Part shown: positions 32,491 through 39,388 of the stretch, piece by piece | Layout: each line of letters opens with the position of its first letter | Position numbering within the stretch: the stretch's first letter is position 1 | Assembly: GCA_913060495.1 (NCBI GenBank) | Contig: CAJXRP010000007.1 | Coordinates: forward strand, 62,001-126,000 | Reading direction: 5' to 3' | DNA from: an uncultured Gammaproteobacteria bacterium | Lineage (GTDB): Bacteria > Pseudomonadota > Gammaproteobacteria > Pseudomonadales > Pseudohongiellaceae | DNA: 64,000 nt | The notes under the pieces: model-generated | Seen by the model: only the letters and a program-made list of their open reading frames with translations | Told to the model about the DNA's origin: nothing | The model's database searches: none | Program-made: the position numbers and the translations under genes

Positions 32491-33627
32491 CTAGTTGTTT
32501 TCTATCTCTAGTGGAGCATAGTAACTGCCACCGGCACTCTCTACCTGCTCGCGTCTCGCGCGCCATTCAGGGCCAGCGTTACCGCCTTCCTCATACTCCA
32601 GATCCTGTCTGAGATAGTTCCAGCTTGTTGGATCCAATTCCTGTGCCATGGTCCAATACTGTTCTGCTTTCTCATCGTTATCGTTGGTGAAGTAATAGCC
32701 ACCTAAGCGAAAGGCAGGTTGCGCACGTTCGGCATCGGGGGTTCGCTGAACGATACTCTCGCGCACCTTACTCCTATCCCAGACGTATTCGCTGTCGGCT
32801 CCCTTAGCAACCCAATCACGCACGATGGGTACGTAGTCATTAGTACCCCAAGCGCCATCGAAATGTTCTTTCGCGTAGGTGCCTTCGTTGATGCGCATGA
32901 TCTTGCCTTCCTCGTCTATCCAGACGCCGGAGGGAACATTGACCAGATTGTAGAGTGAACTTATGTGATGGTTCACATCGATGATTGCTGTGTAAGTAAC
33001 GTTAGCATCATCAAAGTATGAGCCAGCAGCTTCTTCTCCGCCGGTATCTTGAGCTACAGAAATTATTTCAAAATTATCAGATTTGAGTTCTTCGTAAATG
33101 GACTGCCACACGGGCACGTCGAAACGACATCCTCACCACGAGGCCCAGGTAAGTAGTAATACCTTCTTGCCTCTAAAGTCCGAAAGACGAACTAGTTCGC
33201 CATCACGACCCATCAATTCAAAATCGGGTGCTTCGCCACCGCGCAGAAAAGACTGGCGCGTTACCGGCATGCTGCCAAAACTCCAGATGCCGTCATTGTA
33301 GTCAGTGACATAGGCTTGCTGCAGCTTGTCAGCCAGCTCTGTGACATTGAACCAAGCCTGTCCCTGTCGGGTTACAAACATGGCACTGTCGCGATCTTGC
33401 AGAACCGGAACGCACAATTCGTCTAAGCAAGCCCCTTCAGGCTTAAGAACGAAATCGTTCACTCGAGTTAGATCTTCGGGTTTAACCCAAAGATCGGTAG
33501 CGTCTGGCAGCGTTTGCTCCAGCTCCACGACACGCTCGTTATAGAGCACAGTTGTGCTCTGGGCGTTGAGCGCGCCGCTTACAAGCATAGCGGCGGTAAG
33601 GCCGACAATGCTTCTCATATTCTTCAT
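32491..33627 (-). CDS. Candidate selenoprotein: exported ResA/TlpA-like thioredoxin-fold protein with in-frame TGA
   Basis: Read through TGA at 33133-33135, this is one 378-residue protein. The start ATG at 33627 follows AAGGAG by six bases and gives a signal peptide (MKNMRSIVGLTAAMLVSGAL). A domain with C67 and C72 precedes a redoxin/TlpA domain: APDFELMGRDGELVRLSDFRG, then VLLLTWASW, residue 165 encoded by TGA, then GCRFDVPVWQ. The TGA occupies the resolving/attacking Cys position of the thioredoxin motif, so selenocysteine is the natural reading (W-A-x-x-U-G-C). The downstream part continues the fold (FEIISVAQD, VNVPSGVWIDEEGKI) and ends in a TPR-like helical tail. A gene caller would give two frames, 33133-33627 and 32491-33117. 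A nonsense mutation or sequencing error is the alternative. Confidence 0.75.
33101..33120 (-). promoter_or_regulatory. Candidate bacterial SECIS hairpin downstream of the in-frame TGA
   Basis: Counting U of UGA as 1, mRNA positions 16-35 fold as GAC, bulged G, UGCC, loop CGUGU, GGCA, GUC: a seven-pair stem with one bulge. The apical loop starts 20 bases after the UGA and has G as its second base, which fits the published bacterial SECIS geometry (loop about 16-37 bases after UGA, G in the first two loop positions). A competing smaller hairpin at positions 6-20 is also possible. Predicted by eye, not computed. Confidence 0.5.
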
Positions 33628-33883
33628 GGTGATCTCCTTGGCAGGGCTAGACTTGCCCCTTAAACGACTGAGTTGGCTACCCTTGGTCGGTAGCGGACCC
33701 AATATAACAGTTGGCTTGGGTGGAGGGTATCGTAATCTAGGATGGACCGAAGAATTAGGCGATTGAATAAACAGGAGATTCTGGCACTATTTACTGACCT
33801 ATCAGCCTGTGAACTAGTCGCCGATTTGCCTGTTAGAGGCCAAATCTAAGTGTTTGACTGATTCGCCTAAAAAAGTGAAAAAC

Positions 33884-35055: not shown

Positions 35056-38000
35056 ATGAGAGAATTGATTTCGGAAAAGCGCCGCTGGATCGGCGGACGC
35101 GGACTTCGTTTTCTCTCGATTTATGCTCCTTTTGTTCTAATTAGCGCTCTCTCGGTAAGCGTCTTTCTCTACATGGGCTTTAGCCCCGACCGCGATCAAT
35201 TGATGGCGATCGTAGCCCTCCTCTCCGGCACATTTGTTCTCTCTGGTGTCATTTCTTGGCGCTATGCTTCTAATTTGTATGGCAAGGAAAAGCAGATTCG
35301 CACTAACGAAATTCTGCGCGAGGCTTTTATCGGCAAGACGCGCAGCGCTCTATCTGTAAAAGATTTGGAGGGCCATTATCTGTATAGCAATGAAGTCTGG
35401 AGCAAGATGGTGGGGCTGCCAGAGAAAGACATCGAAGGTAAAACAGACTTCGATTTGTTTCCCATCATGCAAGCGACTATTCAGCAACAACAAGATGATC
35501 AGATTTTACAGGGCGGAGACAGAGTAGAATTTGATGACATCCTGATCGCTGCAGATGGGGTATCAAAATTCACTGTCATGAAATTTGCCATGCGCACGCG
35601 CAGTGGCAGAATCTATGGCGTTGGTACTATCGCCCATGATGTAACTAACGTACTTTCTACAGAGAGTGCACTTAAAGATAGTGAGCATCGATTCGAAGCA
35701 CTTCTCGATATGGCGCCGAACGCAATTATTATTGCCGATGAGGCGGGGGCAATACGACTGGTGAATCGTCAGGCAGAAAACCTATTCGGTAGAGATTCAG
35801 AAAAACTACGCCAGTTAAATGTTGGAGAATTGATTCCTGAAGAAAGTTGGCAGAAGCTGAGAGATGAAAGAATAGAATTTTTGAAGTCACCCAGTACACG
35901 TGTAATCGGTGCTGAGCGAGAAATGTTTGGCCTCAAAGGGAATGGCTCCAAATTTCCTATCGAAGTTGCCATGAGTCCTGTAGAGAGTGGCGATGACTCG
36001 ATGATAATGTGCATTGTACGTGACATTACCAAGCAGGTTCAGGCGATGAGTGCACTGGAAGAAAGCACGACACAGCTGAGATTGCTAAATCGCGAATTGG
36101 AAGAGGAACGTCAGGGTCTCGAGCAGCGCGTGAATCAACGTACTGAAGAATTGAATTTGTCGCGTCAGCGGGCTGAAGAGGCTAACAAGGCAAAGAGTTC
36201 CTTCCTCGCGACTATGAGTCATGAGATCCGCACTCCAATGAATGGAGTAATTGGAACGATCGATGTTCTTAGGCAGAGTAGTCTCAAACCGCGACAGCTA
36301 GACCAAGTCGAAATCATAAAGGATTCGGCATACAGCCTCTTAACAGTCATAGACGATATCCTCGATTTCTCTAAGATCGAAGCTGGCAAGATTGAACTCG
36401 AAGCAGAGCCTGTCATCATCTCTTATCTTGCCGAGTCAATCTGCAACGCGATGTTGTCGATAGCGCGTAAGAAGCAGGTTGGCTTGCGATTCTATCTAGA
36501 CCCATATCTGCCAGATGCCATCGTGTCAGATGCTGTGCGCCTGCGTCAGATTGTAATCAATCTCGTTGGCAATGCCCTAAAATTTTCAGGCAGCACAACC
36601 CGGATTGGGCATGTGGATGCACGATTTGAGAAGCAAGGCGATAACCTTCAGATTCGTGTAATAGACAATGGCATAGGTATGCCGAATTCAGCTATTGCAA
36701 CTGTGTTTGAGCCATTCTCTCAAGCCGATACTTCGACGACTCGTCGGTTCGGTGGCACAGGTCTAGGTCTGCCCATCACCAAGCGTATTGTCGAGATGTT
36801 AGGGGGCACTCTGCAAATTGACAGTGAAGAGGGCGAGGGCAGTACTTTCACTGTAACGATACCGATTGAAGAAGTTGCGAAGCCTGGTGCCGCAACGAAA
36901 AAGAATAAGCTACAGAATACACATACTCGGCTGCTCTGCTCGAGACTCGAAGAGAATGAAGACTGGCAAAGCTATTTACGCCATGCCGGTTCTGATGTCG
37001 AAGTAGTTGAAACCCTAGAGCAGCTTTTGGCCGCTCCGAAAAGTGGCTCGGTCATAGCACTGGCTATTGAAAATGATGAAGAGGTTGCAACGTTTAAGCG
37101 CTTGCTCGGCTCTGGAGAGTCTTTTCAGCGTCTGGTGATTGTGCGTCCACTGCAAGATCATCGCGTGGAAGTGCTCGACGGGAAAATAACCCTCGTCAAC
37201 TTGAACCCCAGCACAGGAACATGCTTTCACGATGTGCAGGCTGCAATCTCTGGTAACGTCGATCATTTGCAAGACACGCAGTCGGAGAGTTTTGAGACAA
37301 AAAAGAAAATCACACGAGAAGAAGCAGAAAAGCAAGGCCGTATGATTCTTGTTGCTGAAGACAATGATATAAACCAGAAGGTAATTAAAAATCAATTGGA
37401 ACTTCTCGGTTATGCTTTTGATGTGGCAGGCAATGGACAGCAGGCGCTTGAGCTTTGGAGCGAGCGCCACTATTCATTATTGTTAACAGATCTACATATG
37501 CCGATTATCGATGGTTATGAACTAACCGCCGCGATACGTCGTCAGGAAACTAACAGTGATAGGCAATTGCCAATTGTCGCATTCACGGCAAACGCGACCA
37601 AGGGTGAGAGAAATTTGTGTATCGAAGCAGGTATGAATGACTACTTGCCAAAGCCAGTCCCTTTAGAATCACTGCAAGATAAGTTGGAGAAATGGGCTGG
37701 AAAAACCCTTGAGGAAGTGCCTCGCCCGGGGCTTGATAAAGGAGAATTTTCGCAGCCTGAGAAAGATGTCGATAGTGAAGCTTCCGAAATATACAACGAG
37801 GTTGCCAACGGATCGACGGCGCTCTCTACACTGGATGTTAATGTTTTGATCCAGTTAGTGGGCGATGATCCGGGCCTTATCGATAGCTTTCTTAGCGAAT
37901 ACCAACAGTCGGCAGAGAATGCTGCCTTGGAAATAGAAGAGGCTTACAATGGAGGGCAGTGGAAACAAGTTGGCGAGCTTGCCCACACGTTGAAATCTTC

Positions 38001-38157
38001 ATCACGATCAGTAGGTGCTTTAGCGTTAGGTGAGATTTGTGCTGAGCTAGAGTTAGCAGGGAAGAATAACGAGGAATCTCAAATCCACGGTGCAATGGCT
38101 GGGTTTTCTCAGTCGTTGCAGGCAGTTGTGGAATCAATAGGACAACGGGACAGTTAA
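35056..38157 (+). CDS. Hybrid sensor histidine kinase (2 TM, 2 PAS, HisKA, HATPase, REC, Hpt)
   Basis: A 1033-residue inner-membrane phosphorelay kinase. Two N-terminal membrane helices (about 18-40 and 48-68), PAS domains at about 90-200 and 208-325, a coiled coil at about 330-380, HisKA with H389 (MSHEIRTPMNG), ATPase with N507, DNGIGM and GTGLGLP, a receiver with E768/D769, phosphoryl Asp812 and K866, and a C-terminal Hpt domain with H977 (LAHTLKSSS). Residues about 620-735 look like a second, degenerate receiver lacking the Asp. All relay steps up to the Hpt are in one chain. The REC-EAL gene starts one base after its stop and is the likely phosphate acceptor. Confidence 0.93.
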   Translation: MRELISEKRRWIGGRGLRFLSIYAPFVLISALSVSVFLYMGFSPDRDQLMAIVALLSGTFVLSGVISWRYASNLYGKEKQIRTNEILREAFIGKTRSALSVKDLEGHYLYSNEVWSKMVGLPEKDIEGKTDFDLFPIMQATIQQQQDDQILQGGDRVEFDDILIAADGVSKFTVMKFAMRTRSGRIYGVGTIAHDVTNVLSTESALKDSEHRFEALLDMAPNAIIIADEAGAIRLVNRQAENLFGRDSEKLRQLNVGELIPEESWQKLRDERIEFLKSPSTRVIGAEREMFGLKGNGSKFPIEVAMSPVESGDDSMIMCIVRDITKQVQAMSALEESTTQLRLLNRELEEERQGLEQRVNQRTEELNLSRQRAEEANKAKSSFLATMSHEIRTPMNGVIGTIDVLRQSSLKPRQLDQVEIIKDSAYSLLTVIDDILDFSKIEAGKIELEAEPVIISYLAESICNAMLSIARKKQVGLRFYLDPYLPDAIVSDAVRLRQIVINLVGNALKFSGSTTRIGHVDARFEKQGDNLQIRVIDNGIGMPNSAIATVFEPFSQADTSTTRRFGGTGLGLPITKRIVEMLGGTLQIDSEEGEGSTFTVTIPIEEVAKPGAATKKNKLQNTHTRLLCSRLEENEDWQSYLRHAGSDVEVVETLEQLLAAPKSGSVIALAIENDEEVATFKRLLGSGESFQRLVIVRPLQDHRVEVLDGKITLVNLNPSTGTCFHDVQAAISGNVDHLQDTQSESFETKKKITREEAEKQGRMILVAEDNDINQKVIKNQLELLGYAFDVAGNGQQALELWSERHYSLLLTDLHMPIIDGYELTAAIRRQETNSDRQLPIVAFTANATKGERNLCIEAGMNDYLPKPVPLESLQDKLEKWAGKTLEEVPRPGLDKGEFSQPEKDVDSEASEIYNEVANGSTALSTLDVNVLIQLVGDDPGLIDSFLSEYQQSAENAALEIEEAYNGGQWKQVGELAHTLKSSSRSVGALALGEICAELELAGKNNEESQIHGAMAGFSQSLQAVVESIGQRDS

Positions 38158-38158
38158 T

Positions 38159-39388
38159 ATGGAGCATCAATCCGAAGGCTCACAGGCCACAACGAAAATC
38201 ATAATTGTTGATGATGACCAATTTCAATTGAAATTGCTTTCTCATCAGTTGTCCATGGTGGGCTATAAAAATGTGGTTGCGTTCGACGATGGCCAGACTG
38301 CTCTAGATCATATGGCGGGTCAGGTTCTCGATTCCACTATTGTTATCCTCGATCTAAATATGCCGAATATGGATGGTCTCGAATTCTTGCAGAAGCTACA
38401 GGAAACTGAATTTACTGGTGCTTTGTTATTGGTGAGCGGTGAAGACGAGAGAGTAGTGCAATCTGCCGAGGCATTGGCTTCTTCTTACAATCTGTGGGTG
38501 TTAGGCCATCTCAATAAACCAGTACAGCAGGAACAATTACAAAAATATTTGAAACAACTGGATGCTCAGAAAGAAAAGTCTCTAGTGGGTGAGAAGGAGC
38601 ACAGCTACGAGGCGGCTAGATTGAAGCAAGCTATAGAATCTGGAGAGCTATCCAATTTCTATCAGCCTAAGGTGTTATTAGATACTGGTGAGTTGGTTGG
38701 TGTGGAAGCGTTGGTGCGCTGGGAGCATCCCGAGGACGGTCTTATTCTGCCGGACCATTTCATAGATCTAGCCGAAGAGAATGAGTTGATAGACAGTATT
38801 GCGCAACAGGTATTAAGCAGTGCGCTTTCGGACAGTAAGCTTTGGAAGGAAGCTGGCATCAACATTACGGTTGCGGTGAATATCTCAATGTACAACCTAA
38901 ATACTAGAGACTTCATCAGTTATCTTGAGAAAGAATTGCTAGCGTCGGGTATAAACCCCCAGGATCTGATCCTGGAGGTGACTGAGTCAAAATTAATGAA
39001 GGACTATTCGCTGGTTCTGGATATGCTAACTAGGCTTAGATTGCGTCGTGTGAATCTTTCTATCGATGACTTTGGCACGGGACATTCGTCCATGACGCAA
39101 TTGCGTGATATCCCCTTTAATGAGTTGAAGATAGACCGCGGCTTCGTGCATTCCGCCTGCGACAACGCAACTCTGCACGGCATTTTTGATGGCAGCATTC
39201 AATTGGCTAAGAATCTAGGCATAAAGACAGTAGCGGAGGGTGTTGAGAACGAAGCTGACTGGAGTTTTCTAGACGGCTCAGGCTGCGATCTGGCACAAGG
39301 TTTCTTTATTGGTAAGCCTATGCGTGCCTTAGAGCTGAGGGAGTGGAAAACACAATGGGCTGAGCGTTACGAACAGATTGCGATCTAA
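38159..39388 (+). CDS. Response regulator with intact EAL c-di-GMP phosphodiesterase domain
   Basis: A 409-residue REC-EAL protein. Receiver 12-135 with acidic D18/D19, phosphoryl Asp65 (ILDLNMP) and K120 (NKPV). The EAL domain at about 155-400 has the catalytic set: E183-A-L (VEALVRW), N241 (NISMYN), E273 (LEVTES), D303/D304 (IDDFGTG), K324 (LKIDR), E360/E363 (AEGVE) and Q380 (AQGFFIG). It should hydrolyse cyclic di-GMP under control of phosphorylation, probably by the hybrid kinase directly upstream, linking that sensor to the motile/sessile decision. Confidence 0.93.
   Translation: MEHQSEGSQATTKIIIVDDDQFQLKLLSHQLSMVGYKNVVAFDDGQTALDHMAGQVLDSTIVILDLNMPNMDGLEFLQKLQETEFTGALLLVSGEDERVVQSAEALASSYNLWVLGHLNKPVQQEQLQKYLKQLDAQKEKSLVGEKEHSYEAARLKQAIESGELSNFYQPKVLLDTGELVGVEALVRWEHPEDGLILPDHFIDLAEENELIDSIAQQVLSSALSDSKLWKEAGINITVAVNISMYNLNTRDFISYLEKELLASGINPQDLILEVTESKLMKDYSLVLDMLTRLRLRRVNLSIDDFGTGHSSMTQLRDIPFNELKIDRGFVHSACDNATLHGIFDGSIQLAKNLGIKTVAEGVENEADWSFLDGSGCDLAQGFFIGKPMRALELREWKTQWAERYEQIAI

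Follow-up and report, generated by a model that had tools for sequence, protein, structure and literature searches.

Do two neighbouring open reading frames (ORFs), parted by one TGA at a redox motif, represent two truncated genes or a single intact gene coding for a selenoprotein? This question is raised by positions 32491 to 33627, on the minus strand, of a stretch of 64,000 nucleotides (nt; hereafter the window) from an uncultured Gammaproteobacteria bacterium of the Pseudohongiellaceae (GenBank assembly GCA_913060495.1, contig CAJXRP010000007.1, positions 62,001 to 126,000). The two frames almost certainly form one selenoprotein gene, in which the UGA of codon 165 would be decoded as selenocysteine (Sec) under the direction of a downstream hairpin, and an apparent pair of truncated genes thereby becomes one intact selenoprotein. 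The actual insertion of Sec is inferred from evidence of a sequence-based nature, namely conservation of the TGA and of the hairpin, the presence of the Sec machinery, purifying selection on both halves, and the predicted fold.

A single reading frame with one in-frame TGA

Translation of the minus strand from 33627 to 32491 gives a single frame of 378 codons plus stop, with a lone TGA at codon 165 (window 33135-33133, surroundings TWASW-TGA-GCRFDVPVWQ) and no other internal stop. A first-pass annotation of the stretch had pointed to two minus-strand frames in the same phase parted by one TGA, which this translation confirms, and had predicted that annotation pipelines would give two truncated proteins. 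The ORF listing indeed splits the gene into two same-phase ORFs, 33702-33133 (189 amino acids) and 33117-32491 (208 amino acids), and many of its database relatives are split likewise (see below). A lone in-frame stop flanked by at least 100 open codons on each side is found at five places in the window, two of them with TGA; since the TGA of codon 165 is, by reading, the only one of the five that falls at a redox motif, its position goes beyond chance. The ATG at 33627 has a Shine-Dalgarno-like AAGGAG (33634..33639, minus strand) 6 bases upstream, whereas no such sequence stands immediately upstream of GTG 33117, from which the downstream ORF would start.

Conservation of the TGA across relatives

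When 119 genomes of the same family were searched with the read-through protein, 33 long copies were found in 32 genomes, all of them with TGA at codon 165. All 32 carriers belong to the same genus, which accounts for 66 of the 119 genomes by our own count, and a long copy is absent from all 53 family genomes of other genera; the weaker matches among those listed are other thioredoxin-like stretches without stops. One carrier, G086, holds two long copies, the second of which (G086:C48:28165-29169) is 55% identical and also contains a TGA. At the level of the phylum, a scan of 398 genomes gave two matches at E <=1e-40, one in the genome under study and one in G257, both with TGA. A further scan with one genome per species gave 268 relatives, the best 80 of which (L050-L129) come, according to their record titles, from Pseudomonadales, Vicinamibacterales, Hydrogenedentota, Planctomycetaceae, Rhodothermaeota, and others. 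Read across L019-L129, that is in 111 loci with some genes counted twice, codon 165 turns out to be TGA 109 times and TGC twice (L110 and L120), and the TGA recurs across many separate assemblies.

The protein databases lead to the same position. Among the 120 matches listed out of 769, 53 have Cys at residue 165, one has Leu (P0021), and 66 are stubs starting after that residue. The TGA is therefore aligned with a Cys conserved in 53 of the 54 homologues spanning it, which is the pattern expected of a selenoprotein and agrees with the earlier proposal that the TGA replaces a conserved Cys. The Cys homologues are single undivided proteins, and Cys167 (33127..33129, minus strand), the partner Cys of the UGC motif, is invariant in all 54 aligned sequences. 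With 66 of the 120 listed matches being stubs, a family present, by record titles, in several phyla is hidden from annotation.

The ratio of nonsynonymous to synonymous substitution rates (dN/dS) was obtained for both halves in four of nine ortholog pairs that include the gene under study, at 0.019-0.055 upstream and 0.024-0.046 downstream of the TGA, and only upstream in one further pair (0.058); dS was not estimated in the others, probably because of saturation. As judged from these ratios, both halves of the gene are under purifying selection. An extra TAA in the copy of G102 was considered as a sign of decay and rejected, this codon being the natural terminator near the end of the gene.

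Selenocysteine machinery in the genome

Whether the genome holds sel genes had been named as a check by the first-pass annotation, and the answer is positive. In the assembly (3.6 Mb in 45 contigs, with a tool-given completeness of 100), selA (571.8 bits, cut-off 268), selB (387 bits, cut-off 242), selD (286 bits, cut-off 125), and tRNA-Sec (66.9 bits, gathering cut-off 47; anticodon tca, or UCA, by ARAGORN) all score over their cut-offs, and contig C2 carries selA, selB, and tRNA-Sec together. The selD sequence is the C-terminal part of a 757-amino-acid frame (L010:256-2529) whose start looks, by eye, like an NAD(P)/FAD oxidoreductase. With its N-terminal likeness judged in this way, the frame resembles the Ndh-SelD fusions described in the available text of PMC2398784.

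In the family, selA is over cut-off in 77 of the 119 genomes, in 27 of the 32 carriers of the gene, and in 33 of 34 congeneric non-carriers (own count), so that selA is not predictive of the gene, yet nearly always accompanies it. Outside the genus, where 30 loci in 29 genomes were checked, selA is over cut-off in 24 of 27 with the Sec form, a fragment lying just below it in G528 and none being found in two; the Cys form is accompanied by selA in one of two cases. Both tRNA-Sec and selB are over cut-off in G257.

A constrained hairpin downstream of the TGA

Numbering the TGA as bases 1-3, a stem UGCC/GGCA is formed by bases 20-23 and 29-32 around the loop CGUGU (33104..33116, minus strand); the hairpin begins 16 nt past the TGA, within the coding sequence, and its loop starts 20 nt past it. 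RNAalifold, applied to 82 distinct sequences, finds this stem and no other, and its four pairs are formed in all 77 distinct sequences of 45 nt, three pairs being invariant and one changing from C-G to U-G. The model of the bacterial Sec insertion sequence (bSECIS; SECIS for the element in general), as given in the available text of PMC13188914, comprises a loop of 3-9 nt, a stem of 4-16 base pairs (bp), a G in the first two loop positions, a distance of 16-37 nt from the UGA, and a minimum free energy of at most -7.5. The present element agrees with this model: it has a 5-nt loop with G in second place, a stem of 4 bp, and a distance of 20 nt, and the 54 nt from the TGA onwards (33082..33135, minus strand) are predicted to fold at -15.9 kcal/mol.

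The strongest RNA evidence for the hairpin is synonymous constraint. Within the genus, 30 orthologues (L019-L048) provide 284 sites with a degenerate majority residue in at least 20 rows, and a single codon is kept at five of them: D170, V171, P172, and V173, which lie under the hairpin, and E179. A random draw of five sites would include those four with a chance of 1.9e-8, a value to be read in the light of the relatedness of the orthologues and of the sites having been named post hoc.

The encoded residues are restricted as well. In the 82 distinct Sec forms, residue 172 is P or S, residue 173 V or G, and residue 175 only Q, as compared with A, P, G, or K, seven different residues, and Q, E, or D, respectively, in the 53 Cys forms. 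Moreover, residues 171-173 of the Sec forms occur in four sets only, tied to the hairpin loop: VPV goes with the loop CGUGU in 56 sequences and AGUUU in one, L-S/P-G with AGGUU in 17, CGGGU in three, and AGGCU in one, and LPV is found in four. It is thus rather probable that the bases coding for the helix that follows Sec double as the SECIS hairpin, the RNA thereby constraining the protein. If true, Sec and Cys forms compared side by side would provide a data set on how an in-gene RNA signal limits the encoded protein.

Switches between the Sec and Cys forms were counted on a quick, unrooted tree of 95 rows, comprising 66 Sec and 29 Cys sequences (27 of the 53 Cys proteins and two loci), from which the residue-165 column had been masked, and in which L049 stands out by its very long branch and unusual composition and L123 is a short sequence. 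Eight changes are found on the tree, six of them forced by well-supported branches, against an average of 25 with shuffled labels. As read from this tree, the family has switched between Sec and Cys several times, so that a release from the RNA constraint, if this constraint is real, could be studied repeatedly.

Family assignment and predicted function

The protein matches PF00578 (59.2 bits, cut-off 26) and has UGC at residues 165-167, thereby combining the pfam00578 domain with the UGC motif. Its top NCBIfam match is NF041054 (WAxxUGC_long, 'ResA-like WAxxUGC motif-containing protein'; 253.5 bits, E 3.6e-75), and the corresponding motif is present as WASWUGC at residues 161-167. The ResA-like family to which the first-pass annotation had pointed therefore exists, but the 378-residue protein stays below its curated cut-off of 300, and the family is already part of the selenoprotein literature. 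This cut-off misses the present protein and nine of ten relatives scanned, the Cys form L110 (317.7) alone passing it. The ResA model NF002854 gives 77 bits for a cut-off of 170, the motif being UxC instead of CxxC, a point on which the initial reading is to be corrected. As for the selenocysteine peroxiredoxin motif PxxxTxxU, set out in the available text of PMC13188914, it is absent, residue 158 being L and residue 162 A.

Related selenoproteins have been reported. According to the available text of the 2008 GOS survey (Zhang and Gladyshev 2008, PMC2398784), a "Prx-like (UGC-containing)" group with pfam00578 comprises 46 selenoprotein sequences, the final figure in the same row, 855, being taken to be Cys forms, and a 2026 review, in the part available, lists a UGC-containing TlpA disulfide reductase family selenoprotein (PMC13188914). 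The present protein shares with them the UGC motif, the pfam00578/TlpA-like domain (cd02966), and the existence of both Sec and Cys forms. In those texts, the group is known by domain, motif, and counts, whereas domain layout, hairpin, and lineage come from the present analysis. On domain and motif, the gene is accordingly classified with these published UGC-containing selenoproteins and not with NF041054, with which it has the motif WAxxUGC in common. The family is thus already known and little studied, and the present gene adds one further member, of inferred function. Our literature search found no paper for WAxxUGC, for ResA-like selenoproteins, or for selenoproteins together with Pseudohongiella, and the term UGC is absent from the main text of PMC5029168 as available.

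The predicted protein is probably made of three parts: an N-terminal domain (residues 23-122, 33262..33561) with a C67-xxxx-C72 pair, this CxxxxC being found where expected in all 111 loci; a thioredoxin fold of the ResA/TlpA/DsbE type (residues 126-278, 32794..33252); and a C-terminal helical, TPR-like region (residues 285-364, 32536..32775), as suggested by model helices and weak TPR matches. The extracytoplasmic thiol-disulfide oxidoreductases ResA, TlpA, and CcmG-DsbE have CxxC where UxC is found here, and the N-terminal CxxxxC domain and the helical tail are additional to their fold. The VIA-align comparison hardly probes residues outside 125-280. For the N-terminal domain, no Pfam model exceeded its cut-off and the PDB gave no convincing match by sequence, seven hits to a kinase fusion (E 0.26-0.29) having been rejected as chance. 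Export, also proposed initially, is probable, residues 1-22 (33562..33627) looking by eye like a signal peptide. No signal peptide is evident by eye at the start of the relative L107; this protein may remain cytoplasmic, and export need not hold for every relative.

In the mechanism that we propose, SelB and Sec-tRNA(UCA) would decode UGA 165, directed by the UGCC-CGUGU-GGCA hairpin, and the active site Sec165-Gly-Cys167 would lie within the ResA/TlpA-type thioredoxin fold. The selenolate of Sec165 would attack a disulfide or peroxide substrate, Cys167 would resolve the intermediate as a Se-S bond, and the C67/C72 pair or a partner protein would re-reduce this bond.

Alternative explanations

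Could the TGA be a true stop, due to a nonsense mutation in a decaying gene? Decay is suggested by G113, which holds only fragments of the gene (G113:C92:8892-9288), one of them interrupted by several stops; these look like the remains of a decayed copy, in a genome retaining selA. Nevertheless, a pseudogene is highly improbable in the present case, given that the same TGA stands in all long copies of the genus and in nearly all loci read, those of other phyla by record title included, that the low dN/dS persists in the downstream half in the four pairs giving a value there, and that no further internal stop is found. Hardly more credible is the view that an N-terminal fragment protein and a separate 208-amino-acid protein are made. 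The many C-terminal stubs among the listed database matches would speak for it; however, GTG 33117, besides its lack of a ribosome-binding signal, lies inside the helix following the active site, a split would cut the modelled thioredoxin fold, and the Cys relatives are single proteins. TGA is reassigned in certain bacteria, and the codon might then be read as Trp or Cys, or passed by read-through without SelB. This possibility is minimal in the face of a complete Sec system in the genome and of a synonymously constrained hairpin at the SECIS position; besides, TGA terminates five of the 47 long window ORFs checked, and is thus also a normal stop. A last alternative concerns function only: there is a modest chance that the enzyme acts as a selenol peroxidase instead of a disulfide oxidoreductase, in which case it would still be a selenoprotein.

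Several observations, in addition to the G113 fragments, weigh against a single selenoprotein gene directed by an RNA-level signal. In five of the 32 carriers selA was not found, tRNA-Sec being over cut-off in four of these five and selB in three, and in G102 (85% complete) none of selA, selB, and tRNA-Sec is over cut-off. Covariation hardly tests the hairpin, given the invariance of three of its four stem pairs. A fifth pair, which would close the stem, is missing in 53 of the 77 sequences, the one under study included, and formed in 24 (C-G in 21, U-A in three); its double change is of one kind, in three sequences, and was matched by 48 of 500 shuffles. The sequences with U-A (L088, L093, L118) belong to a single clade, and both of their codons encode the same residues as in the C-G form. 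The 54-nt fold only moderately beats shuffled sequences (z -1.90; 10 of 200 equally good) and a competing fold is preferred in 45- and 48-nt segments, folding energy by itself being weak evidence for a SECIS. Finally, freedom at residues 170, 171, and 174 is not clearly different between Sec and Cys forms, and the two samples compared differ in source and contain related members.

Other genes in the genome and neighbourhood

PF00578 has 17 matches in the genome, five of which contain one in-frame TGA, namely the present gene and four further AhpC/TSA-family genes: L134 (C8:67500-69500), L135 (C5:176000-178200), L136 (C8:85300-87000), and L137 (C37:1-2200). The redox-like motifs at their TGA are GG-U-TMQC, W-U-PYC (twice), and W-U-PPC. 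A hairpin is predicted after each TGA, with a G in the first two loop bases in three of the four, L136 having a 3-nt loop without G. These four genes likely code for additional selenoproteins, and the organism probably makes several of them. No match to SelW (PF10262) was found in its genome.

L050-L129 were searched for nine neighbouring genes of the window: L050-L055 retain most of them and L057 and L059 some, with single matches elsewhere in L058, L092, L111, and L124. Among the 58 loci L072-L129, a neighbouring cluster is shared by eight at most, the three larger clusters corresponding to the gene itself or to antisense frames (positions in L072). Gene neighbourhood was therefore rejected as a clue to function, there being no recurrent partner to name. 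Within the window itself, positions 35056-39388 carry a hybrid histidine kinase directly followed by a response-regulator/EAL protein.
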